From an uncultured Bacteroidales bacterium (GTDB lineage: Bacteria; Bacteroidota; Bacteroidia; Bacteroidales; Paludibacteraceae), in contig CAIKVR010000307.1 of NCBI GenBank assembly GCA_903830915.1, positions 1 through 32,431 of the forward strand: a stretch of 32,431 nt of DNA, given 5' to 3'. The translations under genes were made by a program, and so were the position numbers. The first letter of the stretch is position 1. Every line of letters begins with the position of its first letter. This document shows positions 2,781 to 14,032 of this stretch, piece after piece. The notes beneath the pieces were generated by a model. The model did not search any database. It saw only the letters and a list, made by a program, of their open reading frames with translations, and was not told the origin of the DNA.

Positions 2781-2844
2781 ACGCTTAGGCTTTCCATATT
2801 GAAACAAAACTCCTCTTCTTTCCTATTTATTAAGAATAATATCT

Positions 2845-2852
2845 TATTTTTG
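2845..2852 (+). promoter_or_regulatory. probable -7 element of the XRE/ABC-3C operon
   Basis: TATTTTTG fits the Bacteroidetes -7 consensus TAnnTTTG and lies about 35 bases before the GTG start at 2888. The matching -33 TTTG is not well formed upstream, which would suit a promoter needing an activator or one kept weak by the XRE protein. This is pattern-based only. Confidence 0.5.
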
Positions 2853-2887
2853 CATCACGAACCTGAAATAATCAAAACCTCACTTCC

Positions 2888-3133
2888 GTGGCAGACAAGG
2901 CATACATAACCCCTAACGTACTTCAATGGGCAAGAGAATCGGCCAGAATGACCGGGGAAGTTGCTGCTGCCAAAGTTTCAGTATCGGTTGAAAGGCTTAA
3001 AGAATGGGAAGTTGGATTCGATCAACCTACCATTCATCAGGCTCAGACCTTGGCGAAAGCCTACAAACGTCCTTTTGCATTATTCTTTTTGCCTGAAATT
3101 CCGGTCGGATTTAAACCCATGAAGTTAAAGTAA
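2888..3133 (+). CDS. XRE-type helix-turn-helix protein (lone N-terminal module of XRE-ImmA proteins)
   Basis: This 81-residue protein starts with GTG; no in-frame ATG precedes the conserved region. Residues 8-60 are a helix-turn-helix of the XRE class (WARESARMTG...VSVERLKEWEVG...PTIHQAQTLAKAY). The tail RPFALFFLPEIP is the linker that, in the common XRE-ImmA/IrrE fusion proteins, joins the DNA-binding domain to a zinc metalloprotease. Here the protein stops after the linker and there is no HExxH peptidase; 9 bases later a nuclease-like gene begins. It is therefore either a compact regulator of the operon or an adaptor for the next gene product. As the first gene of a five-gene cluster with a -7 element just upstream, autoregulation is likely but inferred. 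Confidence 0.8.
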   Translation: MADKAYITPNVLQWARESARMTGEVAAAKVSVSVERLKEWEVGFDQPTIHQAQTLAKAYKRPFALFFLPEIPVGFKPMKLK

Positions 3134-3142
3134 TCATTAATT

Positions 3143-4015
3143 ATGAGCAATCAATTAAATAATAAAGACCGAATGAGAAGTTACGCCAGTATCTTCTCCG
3201 GTGCTTCATTTGCTCAGTTGTTGAAAACTGATGATTTAGACTTTATAACAAAGAAAGTTGTACGGTACGACCAACACAATCTTGGGAAAAAATTCAGTAC
3301 TTACTCAGAATATCTGACTTATATATACAATATACTTACGAAAGAATACCGCTGTGAGTATGTTTATAAGAATGAAATCATTAACGAACTGCTCCTTAAA
3401 AAATACGGAACACATAATACGGTAGCCATTAATGAATTTAAGGTGGGTAATTCCGTGGCGGATATGGTTATGTTTAATGGTATAAGTAAAGCTTTTGAAA
3501 TTAAAACAGAACTTGACTCAGACAAACGTCTGAATGGGCAGTTGGCTGATTATCGCACCATTTTTAAAGAAAGCTATATTGTAACGCATGAATCTCTGGT
3601 TGATAAATACCTGAATTTGTGTGGAAAAAGTGGTCTTATTGCCATAGAGAAACAAGGTCGTTCGCTGAAAATGGTAGAAGTGCAGAAGGCTCAGATTGAA
3701 GATGTGATAAACTCTGATGTTTTGATTCGCAGTCTCAGAACTGATGAGTATAAGAATATTATACTTGCTTATTTTGGCTGTCTCCCCAATGTAAATAGTT
3801 TCGGTATGTTTAGTGCATGCGCAGAGTTGATGAAGCAGATCCCACATAATGAACTTCATAACTTGTTTATTTCAGAACTCAAAAAACGAGAATCAAATAC
3901 CGATTTCTTGAAGAATTATTACAAAGAATTACGTCAGGTATGCCTGAGTATGCGAATAAACCCCAAAGAATATACTGAACTGAATCAACTCTTAAATCAA
4001 ACTATATCTATTTAA
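3143..4015 (+). CDS. sce7726-family PD-(D/E)XK nuclease-like protein
   Basis: This 290-residue protein resembles the sce7726 family. The core of the restriction-endonuclease fold is visible: Glu98 (INEF), Asp107 (GNSVADMVMFNG) and Glu119-Ile-Lys121 (FEIKTELD), followed by a helix with RLNGQLADY. That E...D...ExK spacing is the PD-(D/E)XK active-site pattern, so metal-dependent DNA or RNA cleavage is predicted. The start follows the XRE stop by 9 bases and the stop is one base from the next ATG, so it is translated as part of the operon. In other genomes sce7726 proteins usually sit beside an sce7725 ('beta') protein; none is present here, and the neighbours are ABC-3C genes instead. The family call is made from motif and layout; activity is unproven. 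Confidence 0.72.
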   Translation: MSNQLNNKDRMRSYASIFSGASFAQLLKTDDLDFITKKVVRYDQHNLGKKFSTYSEYLTYIYNILTKEYRCEYVYKNEIINELLLKKYGTHNTVAINEFKVGNSVADMVMFNGISKAFEIKTELDSDKRLNGQLADYRTIFKESYIVTHESLVDKYLNLCGKSGLIAIEKQGRSLKMVEVQKAQIEDVINSDVLIRSLRTDEYKNIILAYFGCLPNVNSFGMFSACAELMKQIPHNELHNLFISELKKRESNTDFLKNYYKELRQVCLSMRINPKEYTELNQLLNQTISI

Positions 4016-4016
4016 A

Positions 4017-4985
4017 ATGAATAGACCAAATTACTTTAATGCCATTGAAGAACGTATAAACCTTCTTGCACTTCGGATAATATCCAGAGGCAGATTAAAT
4101 ATACTGGATTTTCATGGTCATTCTGAATACTTTTATCAATACTTATTGAATGAAGTTTATGGTTTGAAAGTGGTCAATGAAAATGATTTTAAACAAAATG
4201 TAGAAGCGATTGATCTGATAGACCATACAAATAAGTTTGTTTTGCAGGTTTCATCTACAGCAAGCAAACAAAAAATTGAATCCTCTCTTTCGAAGGACTC
4301 TATCAAAACATACAAGGGCTACACCTTTAAGTTTGTTTCAATTGCAAAAGATGCGGATGAATTAAGAAAGGATACGTTCAAGAATCCTCATGGAATTAAG
4401 TTTAACCCAACAATAGATATTATCGATAAGAACTCAATTCTTTCAAGAATAAGAGGTTTACAGATAACCGATCAGGAAAGGATTTACTACTTTATAAAAA
4501 AGGAACTGGTTGCTGAAATTGACCCACTGAAATTGGAAACCAATTTAGCAACAGTAATTAATATTCTTTCAAGAGAAGACTGGGATAAAACGGAACCCAT
4601 TGCTGAAATAAACAGTTTTGAGATTGAGCGGAAAATTACATACAATAAATTAAATGCTGCTAAAACAATTATTGACGATTATTCAGTGCATTATGGCAGA
4701 CTAGATAAGATTTATTCTGAGTTTGATTCACTTGGGAGCAACAAAAGCAGCTCAGTTCTTTCGACAATTCGACAAGAATATGCAAAGAACAAAAGCATTT
4801 TATACGAAGATCAACTCTACTTTCAAGTTATATCAAATGTACAGGAAAAGGTATTAAACAGCTCAAATTACACAGCAATTCCATTTGACGAGTTGGAACT
4901 CTGTATAAATATCCTCGTGGTTGACGCATTTATAAGATGCAAAATATTTGAAAACCCAGAAAACTATAGCTATGCTACTACCTGA
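4017..4985 (+). CDS. SMEK-domain protein of an ABC-three-component system
   Basis: This 322-residue protein has the N-terminal SMEK module seen in ABC-3C conflict systems: a helical lead (EERINLLALRI, residues 11-21), the segment FYQYLLNEVYGL (39-50), then NVEAIDLID (61-69) and LQVSSTASKQKI (76-87). Asp66, Gln77 and Lys84 fall where a PD-(D/E)XK-like fold places D-(E/Q)x-K residues, so a nuclease or nucleic-acid-binding role is possible; that is inference. Residues about 160-310 are helical and probably contact the ATPase and middle component. It starts one base after the nuclease stop and its 3' end overlaps the next gene by 14 bases. SMEK proteins are normally encoded directly before the middle component and ATPase, as here. 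Confidence 0.75.
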   Translation: MNRPNYFNAIEERINLLALRIISRGRLNILDFHGHSEYFYQYLLNEVYGLKVVNENDFKQNVEAIDLIDHTNKFVLQVSSTASKQKIESSLSKDSIKTYKGYTFKFVSIAKDADELRKDTFKNPHGIKFNPTIDIIDKNSILSRIRGLQITDQERIYYFIKKELVAEIDPLKLETNLATVINILSREDWDKTEPIAEINSFEIERKITYNKLNAAKTIIDDYSVHYGRLDKIYSEFDSLGSNKSSSVLSTIRQEYAKNKSILYEDQLYFQVISNVQEKVLNSSNYTAIPFDELELCINILVVDAFIRCKIFENPENYSYATT

Positions 4986-5199
4986 CAATATACACCCCGA
5001 AAATAGCATCTATTACAATGGCGCTTTTGTTATTGAAGCTCTTAATAATGAGAGAAGTTTCGAGATTCTTGATTTGTATCAGGAAGTAAAACTAAAAAGA
5101 TCGATGACATTCTCTGTATTTATTTTGTGTCTGGATTGGTTATATTTGTTAGATGTTGCAAAAATAAACTCAAAAGGAGAAATCGAATTATGTTCATAA
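4972..5199 (+). CDS. ABC-three-component system middle component
   Basis: This small protein of 75 residues starts best at the ATG at 4972 (MLLPDNIHPENSIYYNGAFV). A start at 4948 is also open, but the family usually begins with a short strand then an early 'h-P' motif, and 4972 leaves only a 14-base overlap with the SMEK gene. The order is an N-terminal beta segment, a helix ending in ILDLYQEVK, and a winged-helix-like hydrophobic end (FILCLDWLYLLDVAKI) followed by GEIELC. This is the pattern of the middle components of ABC-3C systems, thought to bridge the ATPase and the effector. Its last 10 bases overlap the ATPase start (ATGTTCATAA), indicating translational coupling. Confidence 0.72.
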   Translation: MLLPDNIHPENSIYYNGAFVIEALNNERSFEILDLYQEVKLKRSMTFSVFILCLDWLYLLDVAKINSKGEIELCS

Positions 5200-6896
5200 A
5201 AACATTAATTATATCAAGTGGAGCTAAAGTTATTCGTGAAATTGAGTTTCATAAAGGGCTTAACTTAATTGTTGACGAGAGCGAGCATCAAATTACAGGA
5301 AATAGTGTAGGCAAAACGACCGTATTAAAATTGGTTGATTTCTGTTTGGGAGCAAACCCGAAACACATCTATGTTGACCACGAAACAAAAAAACAAGAAT
5401 ATAAACTTGTAAAGGATTTCTTAATTAATAATAAGGTTCTTATTACTCTTATACTAACTGCTGATTTGGACTTAGGAACGGAGGATATTGTAATTGAAAG
5501 AAATTTTCTTGCCCGAAGAGAAATTGTAAGGAGAATTAACGGAGAATCACTGACAGAAGAAGAATTTGATATAAAACTAAATAGTATTCTTTTTCCTGAA
5601 CATCGTGCAAATAAACCTACCTTCAGGCAGATAATTTCACACAATATTCGATACAAGGACGAGAGTATTAATAATACCCTCAAGACGCTTGATAGCTACA
5701 CCACAGATGCAGAATATGAGACCCTTTATCTTTTTCTGTTTGGTTGTGAGTTTACCAAAGGTAATAGTAAACAAGAAATACTAACAAAAATAAAGCAAGA
5801 GGAAACATATAAAAACAGGCTTGAAAAAAATCAGACAAAAACAACTTATGAAACAGCTTTATCACTTGTAAATAACGACATTGAAAAGTTGAATCATAAA
5901 AAGAGCAGTTTTAATCTGAATGAAAATTTTGAAGAAGATTTAGATAAACTAAACGTTGTAAAATACGAAATAAATAAAACTAGTGCAGTAATTGGGAAAC
6001 TCAACATTCGCAAAGACCTTATTCGGGAGGCGGAAGAGGAACTGAAATTGAGCAAGTCTAATATTGACTTAAGGCAGTTGGAAATTATTTACGAACAAGC
6101 TACATCTAAAATAACATCATTACATAAGTCATTTATTGATCTTGTTTCGTTTCACAACACTATGATAGGCGAAAAGGTGAAGTTTATTACGAAAGAATTA
6201 CCTGCAATTGAGAAATCCATTACTGAACAAACTAATGTCCTTAAGCGACTACTAGAGGATGAAAAGAAACTAACAACTGAAATATCTAAAAGCGAATCGT
6301 TTGAAGAACTTGAAGGTATTATTGCCGAATTGACTGAAAAACACAGAAAAAAAGGCGAATATGAAAGTATTATTCAACAACTAAATGAGGTGGAGTCAAA
6401 CCTAAAAGGTCTTAATAATCAATTGACTGAAATAGATAATGAGCTTTTTAATGAGGACTTTGAACAAGTTGTAAAAACTCAACTTTATAAATTTAACACG
6501 TACTTTGCTACCATCTCCAATGAGTTGTATGGCGAACAATATGCAGTAAAATACGATATTACCACAAATTCGAAACGTCAAAGAATATACAAGTTTAGCG
6601 CTTTCAATGCAAATATGAGTTCAGGTAAAAAGCAAGGTGAAATATCTTGTTTCGACCTTGCATACACACTATTTGCAGATGAGGAAAATATACCATGCCT
6701 GCATTTTCTTTTAAATGACAAAAAAGAATTAATGCACGATAATCAACTTGTAAAAATCTCAGAGTTTGTAAATAGAAATAATATTCAATTCGTAGCCTCT
6801 ATACTTAAAGACAAACTTCCTGGTGAACTAGATAAAGATGAGTATTTTGTGGTTCAATTATCTCAGACCAACAAACTGTTCAGGATAAAAGAATAG
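5190..6896 (+). CDS. DUF2326-type ABC ATPase of an ABC-three-component system
   Basis: Start taken as ATG 5190, preceded by AAAGGAGAA, giving 568 residues; an ATG at 5127 lies inside the middle component and adds a non-conserved 21-residue tail. The N-terminal head begins FIKTLIISSG and has a Walker A motif GNSVGKTT (37-44). A long Lys/Glu-rich coiled coil (about 190-430) separates it from the C-terminal head, which carries the signature-like SSGKKQGEISCFDLAY and a Walker B-like strand HFLLND followed by Lys rather than Glu. This split-head SMC-like layout and order match DUF2326 proteins. ATP-driven conformational change that licenses the effector is the model for the family. There is no Cys zinc hook in the arm, unlike the ATPase fragment at the left edge. 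Confidence 0.85.
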   Translation: MFIKTLIISSGAKVIREIEFHKGLNLIVDESEHQITGNSVGKTTVLKLVDFCLGANPKHIYVDHETKKQEYKLVKDFLINNKVLITLILTADLDLGTEDIVIERNFLARREIVRRINGESLTEEEFDIKLNSILFPEHRANKPTFRQIISHNIRYKDESINNTLKTLDSYTTDAEYETLYLFLFGCEFTKGNSKQEILTKIKQEETYKNRLEKNQTKTTYETALSLVNNDIEKLNHKKSSFNLNENFEEDLDKLNVVKYEINKTSAVIGKLNIRKDLIREAEEELKLSKSNIDLRQLEIIYEQATSKITSLHKSFIDLVSFHNTMIGEKVKFITKELPAIEKSITEQTNVLKRLLEDEKKLTTEISKSESFEELEGIIAELTEKHRKKGEYESIIQQLNEVESNLKGLNNQLTEIDNELFNEDFEQVVKTQLYKFNTYFATISNELYGEQYAVKYDITTNSKRQRIYKFSAFNANMSSGKKQGEISCFDLAYTLFADEENIPCLHFLLNDKKELMHDNQLVKISEFVNRNNIQFVASILKDKLPGELDKDEYFVVQLSQTNKLFRIKE

Positions 6897-6946
6897 TCAT
6901 TTTGATAAAAACAAAGTGTCAGTTAAAGTAATAGTTGATAATTAGA

Positions 6947-6992: not shown

Positions 6993-7403
6993 ATGGAAGG
7001 CAAACCGGGAGAATATTATACAGCAAATCCCTATGTGTATGCACATATTAAAGATGCACGTAAAGACCTCCTGACAAATCCAACCTGTGCCGAACATATA
7101 TTGTGGGAGTATCTCAGAAATAAAAAAACAGGATATAAAATAAGACGTCAACATGTGATTGACAAATATGTGGTTGATTTTGTGTGTTTGTCGAAATATC
7201 TTGTGATTGAAATAGACGGTGGAATTCATTTGCAGCAAAAAGAGCAGGACAAGTTACGCACACAGGATTTAAATTGTTTGGGATATAAGGTTATTCGATT
7301 TACTAACGAGGAGGTTTATGACAATCCGGAGTTAGTAGCGTTGAAAATTAAAGAAGAATTGGATAAAATGACTTCAGACCTCGAGACCTCAGACCTCCCC
7401 TAA
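6993..7403 (+). CDS. DUF559 (Vsr-like) endonuclease-domain protein
   Basis: This 136-residue protein belongs to the DUF559 group, related in fold to very-short-patch-repair endonucleases. The family pattern is clear: helical AEHILWEYLRNKK (about 35-47), RRQHVIDKYVVDFVC (54-68) and VIEIDGGIHLQQKEQD (74-89), where the Asp of VVDF, Glu/Asp of EIDG and the His form the expected metal site, then GYKVIRFTNEEV (102-113). The last ten or so residues (after about 126) are encoded by an intergenic repeat unit (CAGACCTC copies), so the native C-terminus has probably been replaced or extended by the repeat. It has its own promoter and stands between two defence loci. A nuclease role in repair or DNA conflict is likely; the substrate is unknown. 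Confidence 0.85.
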   Translation: MEGKPGEYYTANPYVYAHIKDARKDLLTNPTCAEHILWEYLRNKKTGYKIRRQHVIDKYVVDFVCLSKYLVIEIDGGIHLQQKEQDKLRTQDLNCLGYKVIRFTNEEVYDNPELVALKIKEELDKMTSDLETSDLP

Positions 7404-7451
7404 CCCCTCAGACCTCATCCGTCCTTCGGACACCTTCTCCAAAGGAGAAGG
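7374..7451. repeat. intergenic repeat with CAGACCTC units and hairpins, copy 1
   Basis: GACCTC-type octamers occur at 7375-7382, 7383-7390, 7390-7397 and 7409-7416, partly inside the end of the DUF559 gene. They are followed by a GTCC/GGAC hairpin (7421-7431) and a perfect eight-base hairpin CCTTCTCC/GGAGAAGG (7433-7451). The order GACCTCA, then a CTCTCC/GGAGAG-type hairpin, then AGAAAG recurs at 20374-20412 and, reversed, at 7583-7614. Confidence 0.6.
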
Positions 7452-7582
7452 AAAAAGGTAGATAGTTTTTGGAGGGGGATGTCGGGTGATTGAGATTTGT
7501 AAGATTGATTAAGAATTGAAATATAAATACAAACAATAAAAATACAAACATATTAAAACGAGGGAAACTTCCTAAACCAGAT

Positions 7583-7614
7583 CTCTCCCTCCTTGGAGGG
7601 AGCTGGAGGGAGGT
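7583..7614. repeat. intergenic repeat, copy 2 (inverted)
   Basis: Perfect hairpin CTCCCTCC/GGAGGGAG (7585-7602) followed by AGCTGGAGGGAGGTC. Read on the minus strand this is GACCTCC-CTCCAGCT-hairpin, the same order as copy 3 at 20374-20412 (GACCTCA-CCCCAGC-hairpin). Confidence 0.55.
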
Positions 7615-7686
7615 CAAAAACAACTAAACAACGAAACAGAAATAAATTACATTTAATTCAAAATAAATAGCGTTTGCTTTTATTCT

Positions 7687-7808
7687 CGCAACAGAAATTT
7701 CGCCAAAATTTTACACAGAGATCACGAAAAAGCATAAGAACAACGTCTGCGCAAACGCGCGGACTTGTCTTATTTTTTCGTGTGGTGTTTGGCGACACCT
7801 CTGTTGCG
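7687..7808. repeat. 122-base imperfect palindrome (MITE-like or structured element)
   Basis: Outer arms 7687-7705 and 7790-7808 share CGCAACAG and TCGCCA with a few mismatches between. Inner arms 7723-7752 and 7757-7782 pair from CACGAAAAA to GCGC with small bulges, leaving a four-base loop. It has no coding capacity for a transposase and no target-site duplication was identified, so a MITE is only one option. Confidence 0.55.
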
Positions 7809-7813
7809 GATAA

Positions 7814-7843
7814 GATTTAGTCCGCGTTTTTTGCGGACTAATC
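7814..7843. repeat. hairpin with TAGTCCGC arms
   Basis: GATTTAGTCCGC (7814-7825) pairs with GCGGACTAATC (7833-7843), an 11-base stem with one bulged T. No T-run follows on either strand, so it is not a typical terminator. Confidence 0.5.
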
Positions 7844-7928
7844 TTTCCGAATAATGGCAAGGCTATCGCCGGAGCCATGAAATATCTTCCCCACATTTTT
7901 CTATGTTCACTATGTTTTCTCTGCAGTG

Positions 7929-7953
7929 AGGGCTTCGCGTTGTGTGAAGCCCT
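7929..7953. repeat. hairpin AGGGCTTC/GAAGCCCT
   Basis: An eight-base perfect stem with a nine-base loop, about 60 bases before the hsdM start. It is close enough to lie in the hsdM leader and could affect its expression, but no promoter was placed to confirm this. Confidence 0.4.
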
Positions 7954-8012
7954 TATCTGCATTCGGACGGCTCCGGTATTAAATCCACAACTAATTTAAT
8001 ACTTAATACACT

Positions 8013-9584
8013 ATGTCGGAAGACCAGAAAAAGCAGCTAGAACAACAACTTTGGAATATTGCCAACACCCTGCGGGGCAAAATGAATGCAGATGAATTTC
8101 GGGATTATATTCTGGGATTCATTTTCTATAAGTACCTGAGCGAAAAAATGTGGCGCTATGCCGACGGAATTTTGAAAGAAGACAATATCCGCTTTGTTGA
8201 TATCGACGAAAACAGTGCATTGGGTATGGAATACCTGGAAGCTATCCGACACGAAACGCTCGGTAAGTTGGGCTATTTCCTGAAACCATCGGAACTGTTT
8301 AGCGAAATAGCCCGGCGCGGTATGTCGACAAGTTCTTTGTCTAACGATAATTTTATTTTGGGCGACCTGCAACGTATCCTCACCAATATAGAGCAAAGCA
8401 CGATGGGGACGGACAGTGAAGATGATTTCGATAACCTGTTTGAAGACCTTGACCTGACCAGTACCAAACTGGGACGAACCGAAACCCAAAAGAACGAACT
8501 TGTGTCCAAAGTGCTTTATCATTTAGACCAGATTGATTTCCATTTGGAAGATACCGAACTGGATGTGTTGGGCGATGCGTATGAATACCTGATTGGTCAG
8601 TTTGCCAGCGGTGCGGGTAAAAAAGCCGGCGAATTTTATACGCCGCAGGAAGTCAGTAAGATTCTGGCGCGCATTGTTACCACCGGCAAAGCCAAGTTGA
8701 AATCGGCCTACGATCCAACCTGCGGTTCGGCTTCGCTTTTGCTTCGCCTGGCCAAAGAAACACAGGTAACCAATTTCTACGGTCAGGAGCTGAACCGAAC
8801 CACGTATAACCTGGCTCGTATGAATATGATTTTGCACGGTGTGCATTACCGCGAATTTGATATACGGCAGGAAGATACACTGGAACACCCGCAACACCGC
8901 GGCATGCATTTCGAAGCGGTGGTGGCGAATCCTCCCTTTTCGGCACAGTGGAGTGCCAATCCGCTGTTTATGTCCGACGACCGCTTTAGTCAGTACGGCC
9001 GGTTGGCTCCTTCGAGCAAAGCCGACTTTGCTTTTGTGCAACACATGATCGATCATTTGGCCGACAATGGTATAATGGCAATGGTGTTGCCTCATGGTTC
9101 GTTGTTTCGGGGAGGAGCGGAGTTACAAATACGCCGCTACCTGATTGAAAACCGGAATTACCTCGATGCTGTGATTGGCTTACCTGCCAATATCTTTTAC
9201 GGCACAAGCATTCCTACCTGTATTCTGGTGTTCAAGAAATGCCGCGAATACCCCGACGATGTATTGTTTGTGGATGCCAGCCAGCACTTCGATAAAGTAA
9301 AGACTCAAAATGTATTGCGTGAAGAAGATATCGACCGGATAGTAAACTGTTACCGCCAACGGAGCGAAACGGAGAAATTCAGCAAGCGTGCCACCCTGGC
9401 AACCATTGCTGAAAACGACTATAACCTGAATATACCCCGCTATGTGGACACCTTCGAAGCAGAGGAACGTATTGATATTAATGCATTGGCGGGTGAGCTT
9501 GTGGAACTCGACAAGCAAATGGCAGAAACCGATAAAACCATTGCTGCTTTTTGCCAGGAACTTAATATCTCAACGCCGTTTTAA
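8013..9584 (+). CDS. hsdM: type I restriction-modification DNA methyltransferase subunit M
   Basis: This 523-residue protein is the adenine-N6 methyltransferase subunit that, with HsdS, methylates the host sequence and, with HsdR, forms the restriction complex. The N-terminal HsdM_N domain (LEQQLWNIANTLRGKMNADEF, then GFIFYKYLSEKMW) is followed by FYTPQEVS (about 208), the SAM-binding motif I DPTCGSASLLL (about 234) and catalytic motif IV NPPF (about 306). The motif I form is slightly divergent (DPTCGSAS rather than DPxCGSGG). Length and the EDTELDVLGDAYEYLI segment fit the type IC-like group. It is followed three bases later by hsdS. The gene is clearly richer in G+C than the ABC-3C genes upstream and than hsdS. 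Confidence 0.96.
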   Translation: MSEDQKKQLEQQLWNIANTLRGKMNADEFRDYILGFIFYKYLSEKMWRYADGILKEDNIRFVDIDENSALGMEYLEAIRHETLGKLGYFLKPSELFSEIARRGMSTSSLSNDNFILGDLQRILTNIEQSTMGTDSEDDFDNLFEDLDLTSTKLGRTETQKNELVSKVLYHLDQIDFHLEDTELDVLGDAYEYLIGQFASGAGKKAGEFYTPQEVSKILARIVTTGKAKLKSAYDPTCGSASLLLRLAKETQVTNFYGQELNRTTYNLARMNMILHGVHYREFDIRQEDTLEHPQHRGMHFEAVVANPPFSAQWSANPLFMSDDRFSQYGRLAPSSKADFAFVQHMIDHLADNGIMAMVLPHGSLFRGGAELQIRRYLIENRNYLDAVIGLPANIFYGTSIPTCILVFKKCREYPDDVLFVDASQHFDKVKTQNVLREEDIDRIVNCYRQRSETEKFSKRATLATIAENDYNLNIPRYVDTFEAEERIDINALAGELVELDKQMAETDKTIAAFCQELNISTPF

Positions 9585-9587
9585 GCT

Positions 9588-10751
9588 ATGGAAAAGAATA
9601 TACCAACATTACGGTTTCCTGAGTTTGTGGGGGAGTGGGTTGTAAAGCGATTAGGAGATGTGGCAAGTAGAATAGTTTCAAAAAACAAAGAAAAGAATAC
9701 TAATGTATTGACTATCTCAGCACAATATGGTCTAATTAGTCAATTAGAGTTTTTCAACAAATCAGTATCTGCAAAAGATGTGTCAGGATATTATTTGTTA
9801 AGCAGGAATGATTTTGCATATAATAAAAGTTATTCTAATGGTTATCCAATGGGAGCCATAAAGAGGTTGTCAAGATATGATAAAGGAGTGGTATCGACAC
9901 TTTATATATGCTTTAAAAATACCACAGAATTTGATAATTCATTTGCAGAACAGTATTTTGAAACAGGAAAACAAAATGAAGAAATTGAAAAAGTAGCGCA
10001 AGAAGGTGCAAGAAATCATGGGTTATTAAATATTGGAGTTTCTGATTTTTTCAATATTGAGGTAACAATACCTGAAATCACTGAACAAACCAAAATAGCT
10101 TCATTTCTTACCGCAGTAGATAATAAACTATCTCAATTGAAAAGGAAAAAAGAGCTTTTGGAACACTATAAAAAAGGAGTGATGCAAAAATTGTTTTCTC
10201 AGGAGTTGCGATTTAAGGATGAGAATGGGGAGGATTATCCGGAATGGGAAGAGAAGCCCTTAGGAGAATGCTTAGGTTATATTCAACCAACAAATTATTT
10301 AGTCTCAAGTACTGAATATGATGATTCTTTTAATATTCCAGTGTTGACAGCTGGGAAAACTTTTATTCTAGGTTATACAAATGAAACAACAGGGATATTT
10401 AAAGATAACTTACCAGTAATAATTTTTGATGACTTTACAACTGCAACTCAATTTGTTGATTTCCCTTTCAAAGCAAAATCTTCAGCTATGAAAATTCTTA
10501 TTGCCAATAAAAACGTAAATATAAAATTTATGTATGAGGCTATGCAAATATTGGATTATGAAATTGGAGGCCATGAAAGACATTGGATATCTAAATTTTC
10601 TCAGTTAAACTTATTAATCCCAACGCTAAAAGAGCAAACCAAAATCGCCAACTTCCTTTCAGCCATTGATGAAAAGATACAATACAATAATCAACAGATA
10701 GCGAAAATGGAGAGTTGGAAAAAGGGATTGTTGCAGCAAATGTTTGTATAG
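9588..10751 (+). CDS. hsdS: type I restriction-modification specificity subunit S
   Basis: This 387-residue protein determines the recognised DNA sequence. It has the usual two target-recognition domains: TRD1 (about 10-165) opening with LRFPEFVGEW, a central conserved helical spacer (EQTKIASFLTAVDNKLSQL through KKGVMQKLFSQ, about 165-205), TRD2 beginning DYPEWEEKPLGE (about 216), and a distal helical repeat (EQTKIANFLSAIDEKI...WKKGLLQQMF, 347-386). The two spacer copies are an imperfect direct repeat in DNA, the normal substrate for TRD exchange. Both TRDs are AT-rich compared with hsdM and hsdR. No silent hsdS cassette or invertase gene is in the window, so shuffling by inversion is not supported. 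Confidence 0.95.
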   Translation: MEKNIPTLRFPEFVGEWVVKRLGDVASRIVSKNKEKNTNVLTISAQYGLISQLEFFNKSVSAKDVSGYYLLSRNDFAYNKSYSNGYPMGAIKRLSRYDKGVVSTLYICFKNTTEFDNSFAEQYFETGKQNEEIEKVAQEGARNHGLLNIGVSDFFNIEVTIPEITEQTKIASFLTAVDNKLSQLKRKKELLEHYKKGVMQKLFSQELRFKDENGEDYPEWEEKPLGECLGYIQPTNYLVSSTEYDDSFNIPVLTAGKTFILGYTNETTGIFKDNLPVIIFDDFTTATQFVDFPFKAKSSAMKILIANKNVNIKFMYEAMQILDYEIGGHERHWISKFSQLNLLIPTLKEQTKIANFLSAIDEKIQYNNQQIAKMESWKKGLLQQMFV

Positions 10752-11191
10752 ATACCGCCCCATACCCCTCCCGAAAAAAATCGGGATAAATTGCGGGGCT
10801 TAAAGAGTGGTACTACGAAGCGATATACATTTTGTAGGAGAGTTTTACCAGACGAAAGAATGATTAATTGGTTAAATAATTATCCATTTTGACACCTAAT
10901 TAATTTTTACAATGCTCGCAAACGACCGACCTCGTCCGGTGAGCCGAAAAATGGAGTGAAGTAGGCGTAGTAAACTTTTTTGTTTGAGTCTCGACGTATT
11001 TCGTTGAGGCGAGTTTAAAAGTTTTCAGCCTGCAAACGACTAATTTTTCGAGTGAAGCGGGCGTAGTCTTGAACTTTTTTGCTTCGTTTTTTGGATCAAG
11101 CCAAAAAATGAAGTAGGGTTTAAGGGGCGAAGCCCCTGATATTCAATTTTATATTGACAATAGCTAATATAACGGATAATCATTATTAATT
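10752..11191. other. 440-base non-coding gap between hsdS and hsdR
   Basis: No gene is seen. It contains a TCCCGA/TCGGGA hairpin followed by TAAATTG (10769-10793), two diverged copies of a unit with GCAAACGAC and GAGTGAAG-GGCGTAGT (10918-10971 and 11032-11067), and a small AGGGGC/GCCCCT hairpin (11123-11137). The TCGGGATAAATTG part recurs inverted at 14308-14319. An hsdR promoter was not identified. Confidence 0.6.
10918..11067. repeat. two diverged direct-repeat units between hsdS and hsdR
   Basis: GCAAACGAC occurs at 10918-10926 and 11032-11040. GAGTGAAGTAGGCGTAGT at 10954-10971 matches 11050-11067 at 16 of 18 bases. Each is followed by an ACTTTTTTG tract. The spacing inside the units differs (36 versus 18 bases), so one has lost or gained sequence. 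Confidence 0.5.
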
Positions 11192-14032
11192 ATGACCAGT
11201 CAACCCGAACAATTATTGGAAAATAACCTGATGGCTCAATTGCAGCTGTTAGGCTATTCGTTTGTGTCCATAGCAGATGAAACAGATCTGCTTGCTAATC
11301 TGAAAACGCAGTTGGAGAAACACAACGGGGTGGAGTTTACAGCTAAAGAGTTTGAACGGGTGCTGAATATCCTCAGCAAGGGTTCGGTGTTCGATAAAGC
11401 CCGCACACTGCGGGAGAAACAGCACATTGTGCGTGATAACGGGCAGAGCCTGTATTTTGAGTTTATCGGTACGGATAACTGGTGCCAAAACCGGTTTCAG
11501 GTGACCAATCAGGTAAGCATGGAGGGTAAATACAAAAACCGTTACGATGTAACCCTGCTGATAAACGGTTTGCCACTGGTACAGATAGAACTGAAACGTC
11601 GTGGTATAGAACTGAAAGAAGCGTTTAATCAGGTATGCCGGTATCAGCGCCATTCCTACGGGGCATCGGTGGGGCTGTTTCAGTACGTGCAGATATTTGT
11701 TATCAGCAACGGGGTTAATACCAAGTATTTTGCCAACAACCGCCGCGACAGCTTTAAACAAACCTTTTACTGGAGCGACGAAAACAACCGCATTGTTACC
11801 CAGTTGGAGAAATTTGCTTTCAGCTTTCTGGATACCTGCCACATTTCCAAAATGATATGCAAGTACATTGTGTTGAGCGAAGCCTACAAAGTGCTGATGG
11901 TGCTTCGTCCGTACCAGTATTATGCGGTGGAAGCCCTGATAGAACGGGTGAAGAATACTACCAAAAACGGCTATATCTGGCATACTACCGGTAGTGGTAA
12001 AACACTTACTTCGTTCAAAGCTGCTCAGATATTGATGAATATGCCGCAAGTGCGCAAGGTAGTGTTTGTAGTCGACCGCAAAGACCTGGACTATCAGACC
12101 ACCAAAGAGTTTAACTCCTTCAGCAAAGGCAGTATTGATGGCACCGACAATACCAATGCGTTGGTCAAACAGTTTTCGGACGATACCAAACTTATTGTTA
12201 CCACCATTCAGAAACTGAATACGGCCATCAGCAAAAAACACCATCAGTCAAAAATGGAAAAGCTGAAAGACGAACGCATTGTGTTTATCTTCGACGAGTG
12301 CCACCGCTCCCAGTTTGGCGAAACACATACGCGGATAAAGGCTTATTTCAATAATATCCAGCTGTTCGGCTTCACGGGTACGCCTATTTTTGCCGAAAAT
12401 GCTGTAAAGAATGAACTGGGCAAACGAACAACTACCGAACTGTTCGGGGAGTGTTTGCACAAATACGTGATTACCGATGCCATACGCGATGAGAATGTAC
12501 TGAAATTTTCGGTGGAGTATGTGGGACGCTATAAGAAAAAAGACAGCAGCACCAATATAGATATCGAAGTAGAAGACATCGACCGGAGGGAACTGATGGA
12601 GTCGCCCAAACGACTGGAGAAAATTTCCGACTTTATTATTGCAAATCACGGTCGCAAAACCCATAACCGGGAATTTACGGCTATGTTTTGCGTGAGCAGT
12701 GTAGATACGCTCATCAAATACTACGAACTGTTTCAGACTAAAAAACAGGCGGGTGCTCATACGCTGCGTATAGCCACCATCTTTAGTTATGGCACCAACG
12801 AGGACGATAAAGATGCGAACGGTTTTTTGTCGGAGGATATAACGATGGGTGATGAGGGTGCAGCTGTAAACGCTCATAGTCGCGAGAAACTGGACGAGTT
12901 TATAGTACACTACAACACGATGTACGGTACCAACTTCTCGACCAAAGACAGTGAGTCATTTTATAACTATTACAACGATATCAGCAAAAAGGTAAAGGAA
13001 CGGCAGATTGATATTTTGCTGGTGGTAAATATGTTCCTGACTGGCTTCGACAGCAAAACCTTGAGTACGCTGTATATAGACAAAAACCTGAAATACCACG
13101 GCTTGATACAGGCCTATTCGCGCACCAACCGCATACTCAACGAACAGAAAAGCCAGGGAAATATCGTTGTGTTCCGTAATCTGAAAAAAGCAACTGACGA
13201 TGCGGTGTCGCTTTTCAGCAATGGTGGAGGTGAAGAGATATTCAAACCACCATACGAAGTTTGTTTGAAGAAATTCACCGAAGCGTTTGTGTACCTGCTC
13301 AAAGTGGCTCCCACTGTGGATAGCGTGTCGGAGCTAAAAGACGAAGAACAGGAACTGGAATTTGTAAAAGCTTTCAGGGAGTTGATGCGCATTAAAAATG
13401 AACTCAGCACCTTTGCCGATTTCAGCTTCGACCATCTGGTTATGAACTCACAGCTGTTCGACGATTACAAAAGCAAATACCTCGACTTATACGATAAGGT
13501 GCGAACCGACAACCAAAAAGAAAAGGTGTCGATACTGGAGGATGTGGACTTTGAACTGGAACTGATTCACCGCGACGAAATCAACGTGGCTTATATCCTG
13601 AAACTGCTGGCAAATATGAAAGGCGGTACAGCAGCAGAACGGGAGAAACGCAAAAAGGAAATTATTGATATGATAGCCGGCGAAGCACAGTTGCGCAGCA
13701 AGCGGGAATTGATAGAACAGTTTATTCAGGAGAATATGCCGTATATCGACGAGGCTGATGATATCCCCGATGCCTTTGAGCGTTTCTGGACCGAACAGCA
13801 ACAAACTGCTTTCAGCAAGCTGTGTGCGGAAGAAAACCTGTCGGATGCCAAAGTGGAAAAAGTCATTTCTGATTATATGTATGCCGAACGTGAACCCTTG
13901 CTGGACGAACTCCTCGAACTACGTAACGGCAATAGACCAACACTTCTCGAACGCAGAAAGACGGGTACCCGCATTCTGGACAAGATAAAGGCATTTGTTG
14001 AAACTTTCCTTACGGGAATTAATAATGACTAA
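11192..14032 (+). CDS. hsdR: type I restriction endonuclease subunit R
   Basis: This 946-residue protein is the ATP-dependent translocase and nuclease of the type I complex. The N-terminal nuclease shows RYDVTLL (Asp about 118) and IELKRRG (Glu133-Leu-Lys135), the PD-(D/E)XK site. The helicase motor has Walker A TTGSGKT (about 266-272), the DEAD-like DECHRSQFGE (about 368) and FTGTPIF (about 394), then a second RecA domain with VVNMFLTGFDSKTL and AYSRTNRI. The helical C-terminus that binds the methyltransferase is complete, so no truncation is seen. It is separated from hsdS by 440 bases of repeats, so it may have its own promoter. G+C is high as in hsdM, supporting common origin of the two. 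Confidence 0.96.
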   Translation: MTSQPEQLLENNLMAQLQLLGYSFVSIADETDLLANLKTQLEKHNGVEFTAKEFERVLNILSKGSVFDKARTLREKQHIVRDNGQSLYFEFIGTDNWCQNRFQVTNQVSMEGKYKNRYDVTLLINGLPLVQIELKRRGIELKEAFNQVCRYQRHSYGASVGLFQYVQIFVISNGVNTKYFANNRRDSFKQTFYWSDENNRIVTQLEKFAFSFLDTCHISKMICKYIVLSEAYKVLMVLRPYQYYAVEALIERVKNTTKNGYIWHTTGSGKTLTSFKAAQILMNMPQVRKVVFVVDRKDLDYQTTKEFNSFSKGSIDGTDNTNALVKQFSDDTKLIVTTIQKLNTAISKKHHQSKMEKLKDERIVFIFDECHRSQFGETHTRIKAYFNNIQLFGFTGTPIFAENAVKNELGKRTTTELFGECLHKYVITDAIRDENVLKFSVEYVGRYKKKDSSTNIDIEVEDIDRRELMESPKRLEKISDFIIANHGRKTHNREFTAMFCVSSVDTLIKYYELFQTKKQAGAHTLRIATIFSYGTNEDDKDANGFLSEDITMGDEGAAVNAHSREKLDEFIVHYNTMYGTNFSTKDSESFYNYYNDISKKVKERQIDILLVVNMFLTGFDSKTLSTLYIDKNLKYHGLIQAYSRTNRILNEQKSQGNIVVFRNLKKATDDAVSLFSNGGGEEIFKPPYEVCLKKFTEAFVYLLKVAPTVDSVSELKDEEQELEFVKAFRELMRIKNELSTFADFSFDHLVMNSQLFDDYKSKYLDLYDKVRTDNQKEKVSILEDVDFELELIHRDEINVAYILKLLANMKGGTAAEREKRKKEIIDMIAGEAQLRSKRELIEQFIQENMPYIDEADDIPDAFERFWTEQQQTAFSKLCAEENLSDAKVEKVISDYMYAEREPLLDELLELRNGNRPTLLERRKTGTRILDKIKAFVETFLTGINND

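Follow-up and report, generated by a model that had tools for sequence, protein, structure and literature searches.

ABC-three-component (ABC-3C) systems are among the subjects of PMC10586767 and PMC12409362, as far as the excerpts of these papers go. The excerpt of PMC9394441 reports a Pseudomonas aeruginosa isolate with an integrative element in which members of the sce7726, sce7725 and RES families occur together with a DNA-binding protein; that of PMC12457778 has a Leptospira region with sce7726 and sce7725. No functional description of the sce7726-sce7725-RES cassette was found in the literature searched. ABC-3C genes and sce7726 lie in one row in the stretch described here, a 32,431-nt contig (CAIKVR010000307.1, assembly GCA_903830915.1) of an uncultured Bacteroidales bacterium of the Paludibacteraceae. 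This stretch, called the window below, comprises an entire contig of a draft genome (436 contigs, 87% complete). Genomes are labelled G (G000 being the window's own genome), loci L and contigs within a genome C, each with a number.

Five open reading frames (ORFs) follow one another in one direction from 2888 to 6896; neighbours among the first three are 9 and 1 bases apart, and those among the last three overlap by 14 and 10 bases. These distances had been given by an earlier reading made from the sequence alone (the sequence-only reading) and were reproduced exactly. That reading took the five genes, an XRE gene, a sce7726 gene and an ABC-3C trio, for a single system. The row is very probably a fused defence operon instead, in which a working ABC-3C core carries sce7726 as a captured passenger. 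The components are known and the operon is a local mosaic. An ABC-3C trio would have come to lie downstream of what is left of an XRE-ImmA/IrrE gene (its promoter and 5' fragment) and of sce7726, one gene of a separate cassette. Direct support is provided by the three parts, their separate occurrence, the break points, the missing promoter boxes, and a trio in G785 that has the promoter and a sce7726 tail.

The ABC-3C Trio

Judged by their family matches, the last three genes are an ordinary, self-contained ABC-3C trio, as the sequence-only reading had it. The effector with a CTD docking domain is the SMEK protein (4017..4985, plus strand), consisting of a nuclease-like SMEK_N domain (PF21941, 1.5e-35) and a CTD10 docking domain (PF20275, 3.1e-34). 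The small middle component is middle component 6 (MC6; 4972..5199, plus strand; PF20293, 2.1e-26); it has an ATG start, and its reading frame is also open from a TTG at 4948. The SMC-like ABC ATPase (5190..6896, plus strand) starts at an ATG inside ORF 5127-6896 and belongs to the DUF2326 family (PF10088, 4.1e-22). Its Lys42 is the Walker A lysine, by reading of the sequence, and its best PADLOC model is PDC-M68B (3.6e-35), followed by LmuB (1.2e-14).

A nuclease role of the SMEK protein is predicted from the conserved residues D66/D69, Q77 and K86, from a PADLOC restriction-endonuclease-type match (5.5e-21) and from general knowledge. Among the residues singled out earlier, Lys42 of the ATPase and Glu119 of sce7726 (see below) stand, and Lys84 of the SMEK protein does not: it is variable (Arg in L168), with Lys86 invariant instead in 7/7 sequences including the window. 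The structure model of this protein, built from 7 sequences, is weak (pLDDT 78.9). In one tested CTD10 relative, that of locus L075, an HNH-like domain (below the curated cut-off) replaces SMEK, which fits an exchange of effectors by fusion to the CTD. The own genome encodes a second protein (G000:C47:902-1378, L240) with a distant match (27%) to SMEK residues 2-160.

Separate Occurrence of the Trio and of sce7726

A scan for CTD10 across 393 genomes of the order, own included, gave 31 rows in 28 genomes, corresponding to the window and 29 other loci (one split into two rows), all of which were fetched. The sce7726 profile matched at none of these 29 loci, neither in called genes nor in six-frame ORFs of at least 50 aa; in several of them the flanks were ended by contig ends, and 10/29 ATPases were too diverged for the query or cut off. 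Trios were also pooled from the 29 CTD10 loci, G750, two congeners, eight viral contigs and one plasmid. A matching ATPase was present in 31 loci; 2.5 kb or more of sequence precedes it in 28, and sce7726 was upstream in none. In a sample of 395 genomes of the phylum, the SMEK protein was matched in 13 (own included), closely only in G750 (50%); the trio locus of G750, the sole phylum-sample match fetched (11 weaker genomes were left out), is without sce7726. A Priestia megaterium plasmid carries a trio of the same kind, annotated as ABC-three component system, with no sce7726 match across the 13 kb fetched.

The sce7726 gene was followed by an alignment-based scan of a collection with one genome per species, from which the best 80 of 152 relatives were taken together with as much as 6 kb of flank; the upstream part reached 500 nt or more in 73 loci. 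The gene sce7725, named by NF033831 (two copies), lies directly downstream in 76 of these 80 loci; L103 and L132 stop at a contig edge, and L109 and L125 carry other genes. A RES-type gene, that is, one like the RES-domain gene of L016 (PF08808, two copies), lies at most three genes downstream in 67. These two counts indicate that sce7726 is normally the first gene of a three-gene cassette. This cassette (L080-L159, L252) is strongly conserved, mostly in Bacteroidota according to the record titles. In the flanks as fetched, trio genes and XRE genes were each found at 0/80 loci, so that XRE and sce7726, which had been taken as one module, are not seen together there. In the order sample, sce7725 is downstream of sce7726 in 9 of 14 loci from other genomes, the rest being three weak matches and two cut contigs, and SMEK was found at 0/14. 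In the window, sce7725 and RES are not behind sce7726 and SMEK follows instead; the own genome has no sce7725 match, which carries little weight by itself as the genome is incomplete. In relatives, the trio is regularly found without sce7726 and sce7726 without the trio, essentially the pattern that the sequence-only reading had named as the mark of an accidental association. Its assignment of the first two genes to the ABC-3C system is not supported.

The sce7726-family protein of the window (3143..4015, plus strand; NF033832, 8.1e-47) is of PD-(D/E)XK type, an assignment of its core that we take from general knowledge. D107, E119 and K121 are invariant in 22/22 aligned sequences including the window. 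In the structure model (pLDDT 90.6), these three residues sit on the second and third strands of an alpha-beta-beta-beta-alpha-beta core. The PADLOC model "cll" matches the protein (1.2e-19). No CTD docking family was among its Pfam matches at E up to 1, and comparison with solved structures gave, at the limits used, no relative of this protein or of the ATPase.

Congener searches covered 60 genomes and, within the genus, 48 genomes (own included in both). The XRE gene, the sce7726 cassette and the trio are held separately by the congeners G797, G792 and G819, respectively. The earlier idea that an XRE-nuclease part was added to the trio is right. The complete cassette is present in G792 and G808, and the window sce7726 is 81% identical to the G792 member. 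In G802 the frames of sce7726 and sce7725 are shortened and no RES match precedes the contig end; G822 gave a weak match. The trio of G819 has its own box 18 nt upstream, and G797 keeps an intact XRE-ImmA/IrrE gene.

The Truncated XRE Gene

The first ORF (2888..3133, plus strand; GTG start; HTH_3, 1.4e-6) is, by alignment, the first ~79 codons of an XRE-ImmA/IrrE gene of ~392 aa, of which the helix-turn-helix (HTH) part is kept and the peptidase part is absent. The ten closest homologs of the order, all fetched, are 391-397 aa long (10/10), as is the G797 copy; only the N-terminal ~79-84 residues of the ten are matched in the window at significant E-values, the window match stopping at about residue 79. 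In these ten the next gene is PIN-like, named so by its look. Domains were tested on the G797 copy, which has an M78 peptidase domain and is followed by DUF4411. The M78 domain was not found in the window ORF (HTH only), nor the remainder of the gene in the window. XRE matches were obtained in 32/393 genomes of the order sample, own included, and the frames of the 32 other rows are of 376-413 aa in 30 cases and short in two. The ORF had been read as a repressor belonging to the system; it is a cut-off piece of a larger gene, not a compact repressor gene. Its dN/dS (nonsynonymous to synonymous rate ratio) against G797 is low, 0.12-0.15, a value in which the time before and the time after truncation cannot be separated.

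Promoter and Joins

The promoter (2824..2854, plus strand) includes a TAnnTTTG box at 2845, 43 nt before the XRE GTG, and an operator-like inverted repeat at 2831-2846 with arms TAAGA and TCTTA. Of 79 sce7726 loci, 56 have such a box in the 100 nt upstream of the gene, against 6.3% of random 100-mers from the same loci; before the trio it is present in 9/13 chosen loci (8/12 without G785), against 7.9% of random 100-mers from trio loci. It is found neither in the 100 nt before the window sce7726 nor in the 100 nt before SMEK. The usual box is absent at both places and one stands before XRE, so the XRE promoter is most likely the one on which the trio relies. The whole row would then be one transcript, as was also thought at the outset. 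The earlier claim of a single promoter element holds in this respect; the loose motif has other matches too, at 4232, 4328 and 5141, which fall within the genes of the row.

Counterparts of the promoter stand before the intact XRE-ImmA/IrrE gene in G797 and before the trio in G785. A 25-nt pattern with two degenerate positions, drawn from the G000, G797 and G785 sites, occurs with 0 mismatches in these three only of the 48 genomes of the genus; with 3 mismatches it occurs in six more, while the reversed control matches one genome. The window promoter is 94% identical to that of G785 over 32 nt (blastn), and promoter region and HTH part are 85% identical to G797 over 275 nt.

The joins can be placed by where the DNA matches end. 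The match to XRE genes stops at 3102. That to sce7726 of L080, on the G792 contig, spans 3140-4017, its left end being a contig edge. The match to trios other than that of G785 starts at 4013-4014 or later. The junction of sce7726 tail and SMEK start (3986..4017, plus strand) has a counterpart kept before the trio in G785; in viral contigs, the junction pattern was found 0 times.

The Trio of G785

In G785, a trio of 84% DNA identity with all three ORFs open is preceded by the promoter core and by a stretch of 35 nt, whereas the XRE gene is missing, as is almost the whole of sce7726. This stretch is identical to the 3' end of the G792 sce7726 gene (E 2.8e-13, when three sequences were compared). 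That promoter and a sce7726 tail before this trio indicate that sce7726 and trio were fused there too, and that the row of the window is no plain artefact. The simplest account is one ancestral fusion, after which G785 lost XRE and almost the whole of sce7726. The unit lies beside different neighbours in the window and in G785, so it may have moved as a unit. The G792 contig (L252:5914) breaks off 3 nt upstream of the start of sce7726, as though the sequence on that side were variable in the sample.

Alternative Explanations

The trio might have recruited sce7726 as a second nuclease effector and the XRE fragment as a regulator, the five genes being one system in the genus; we consider this improbable. 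It would agree with joins that lie at gene ends, with the lack of the usual box before sce7726 and trio, with the intact active site and low dN/dS of sce7726, with a sce7726-trio junction in two genomes of the genus, and with a precedent in the excerpt of PMC12799240, where defence systems, some Lamassu among them, have gained a separate upstream nuclease gene. The nuclease of that precedent, however, accompanies a protease fused to the core, and no protease family match was obtained here. No docking domain was recognised in sce7726, the G785 trio ORFs are open though XRE and most of sce7726 are missing, and the order was not found elsewhere (0/80 sce7726 loci, 0/29 CTD10 loci), G785 having the sce7726 tail only. 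The proposal of sce7726 as a second effector is therefore not upheld. If recruitment were true, the row would be a five-gene, doubly armed ABC-3C variant with a nuclease that is swapped in and out.

Several observations nevertheless weigh against a captured passenger on a working trio. The sce7726 gene has an intact active site and looks constrained (dN/dS 0.057 against G792, with dS saturated), though there is no way to date this low value relative to the fusion. The sce7726-trio junction is found in two genomes of the genus, in which the fusion has persisted or recurred. The tail in G785 is nearer to G792 (35/35) than to the window (28/32), which a single old fusion does not predict; a second fusion or a later exchange is a possible source. 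It could even point to two independent recruitments, but that sce7726 and the XRE operator/promoter were recruited at the same junction in two genomes, perhaps twice independently, seems hardly likely. In the order sample, CTD10 is present in 5/14 other sce7726 genomes against 27/392 overall (P = 0.0014, with no control for genome size or defence richness), always on different contigs; the excess may simply reflect that defence genes are abundant in some genomes. An ABC-3C trio is also present in two near-identical prophage contigs (L166:4819-11033 and L167), with a distant sce7726-like gene (9e-9) ~1.6 kb downstream of it, facing a Beta_protein (PF14350) gene. Finally, the two short XRE frames of the order, G125:C3:44573-44689 (67 aa) and G055:C132:32830-32982 (152 aa), suggest that truncated copies may not be unique to the window locus.

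An assembly chimera, in which the contig joins unrelated pieces of the metagenome, would suit the fragmented genome and the left edge of the contig, which looks mixed by eye. It is very improbable, as both joins lie at gene ends and G785, a separate assembly, shows that promoter and a sce7726 tail in front of its trio, joined at the same place. Hardly credible is a toxin-antitoxin-like XRE-sce7726 pair whose sole part would be to retain the trio in the genome. An HTH protein followed after 9 nt by a nuclease-family protein would look like such a pair, but the combination was not seen in the best 80 sce7726 loci and the HTH protein comes from a gene of another locus that has been truncated. As for the manner of insertion, an element with target-site duplication is a candidate, with a 12-nt exact direct repeat around sce7726 and trio (3123..3134 and 6921..6932, both plus strand) as its trace. 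At least 12 nt was reached in 6/4000 shuffles, for a repeat that was found post hoc. A search behind the right copy did not recover the remainder of the XRE gene, and no such repeat follows the ATPase in G785.

For a fused operon with a working ABC-3C core, the most likely course would be as follows. The trio alone would act as a Lamassu-like sensor, in which the ATPase would detect foreign or aberrant DNA and MC6 would be the link. The CTD10-tethered SMEK nuclease would then be unleashed, probably leading to abortive infection. The sce7726 protein would not act as an ABC-3C effector; it would be a nuclease that was captured without sce7725 and RES, its usual partners. The XRE fragment, having lost its peptidase, may still bind the inverted repeat at 2831-2846.

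Surroundings of the Operon

A DUF559 gene and a type I restriction-modification set (6993-14032) lie directly behind the operon and make the region a defence island. At the contig edge (1-1016), the minus strand from 1 to ~130 resembles by eye the end of ribosomal protein L7/L12, and the plus strand holds the 3' part of a LmuB-like ATPase gene (PADLOC LmuB, 4.5e-8, profile 360-604). An intergenic repeat family has copies at 1029-1082 and 2718-2771 that are 83% alike; it is also present in C119 and C265 of the own genome and in several congeners.

Comparison with Known Systems

No description of the five-gene system was found in the literature searched. Tight operon spacing suggests one system here where the relatives show three, which makes the row a clear case: defence-system calling by neighbours would name a doubtful five-gene system. 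Breakage and fusion of defence modules can be seen within one genus, where the separate forms occur alongside what appears to be a deletion derivative.

According to the excerpt of PMC12799240, Hachiman, AVAST, Lamassu and DRT systems have acquired a nuclease gene, a gain that is mostly recurrent. Like the cases given there, the window has a separate nuclease gene just upstream of the core system; unlike them, its nuclease is of a different family, no protease domain was found and the arrangement was seen in one genus. With the pair of XRE-ImmA/IrrE and DUF4411 (PIN-like) genes, the window shares the promoter region and the HTH part, the peptidase part and the DUF4411 gene being lost. With the sce7726-sce7725-RES cassette it shares the sce7726 family protein, sce7725 and RES missing behind it. 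To ABC-3C systems, a branch of the Lamassu-type family, it adds two upstream genes and a borrowed promoter, while its trio has the same three genes (SMEK_N-CTD10, MC6 and DUF2326), in the same order and with the same overlaps and family matches.

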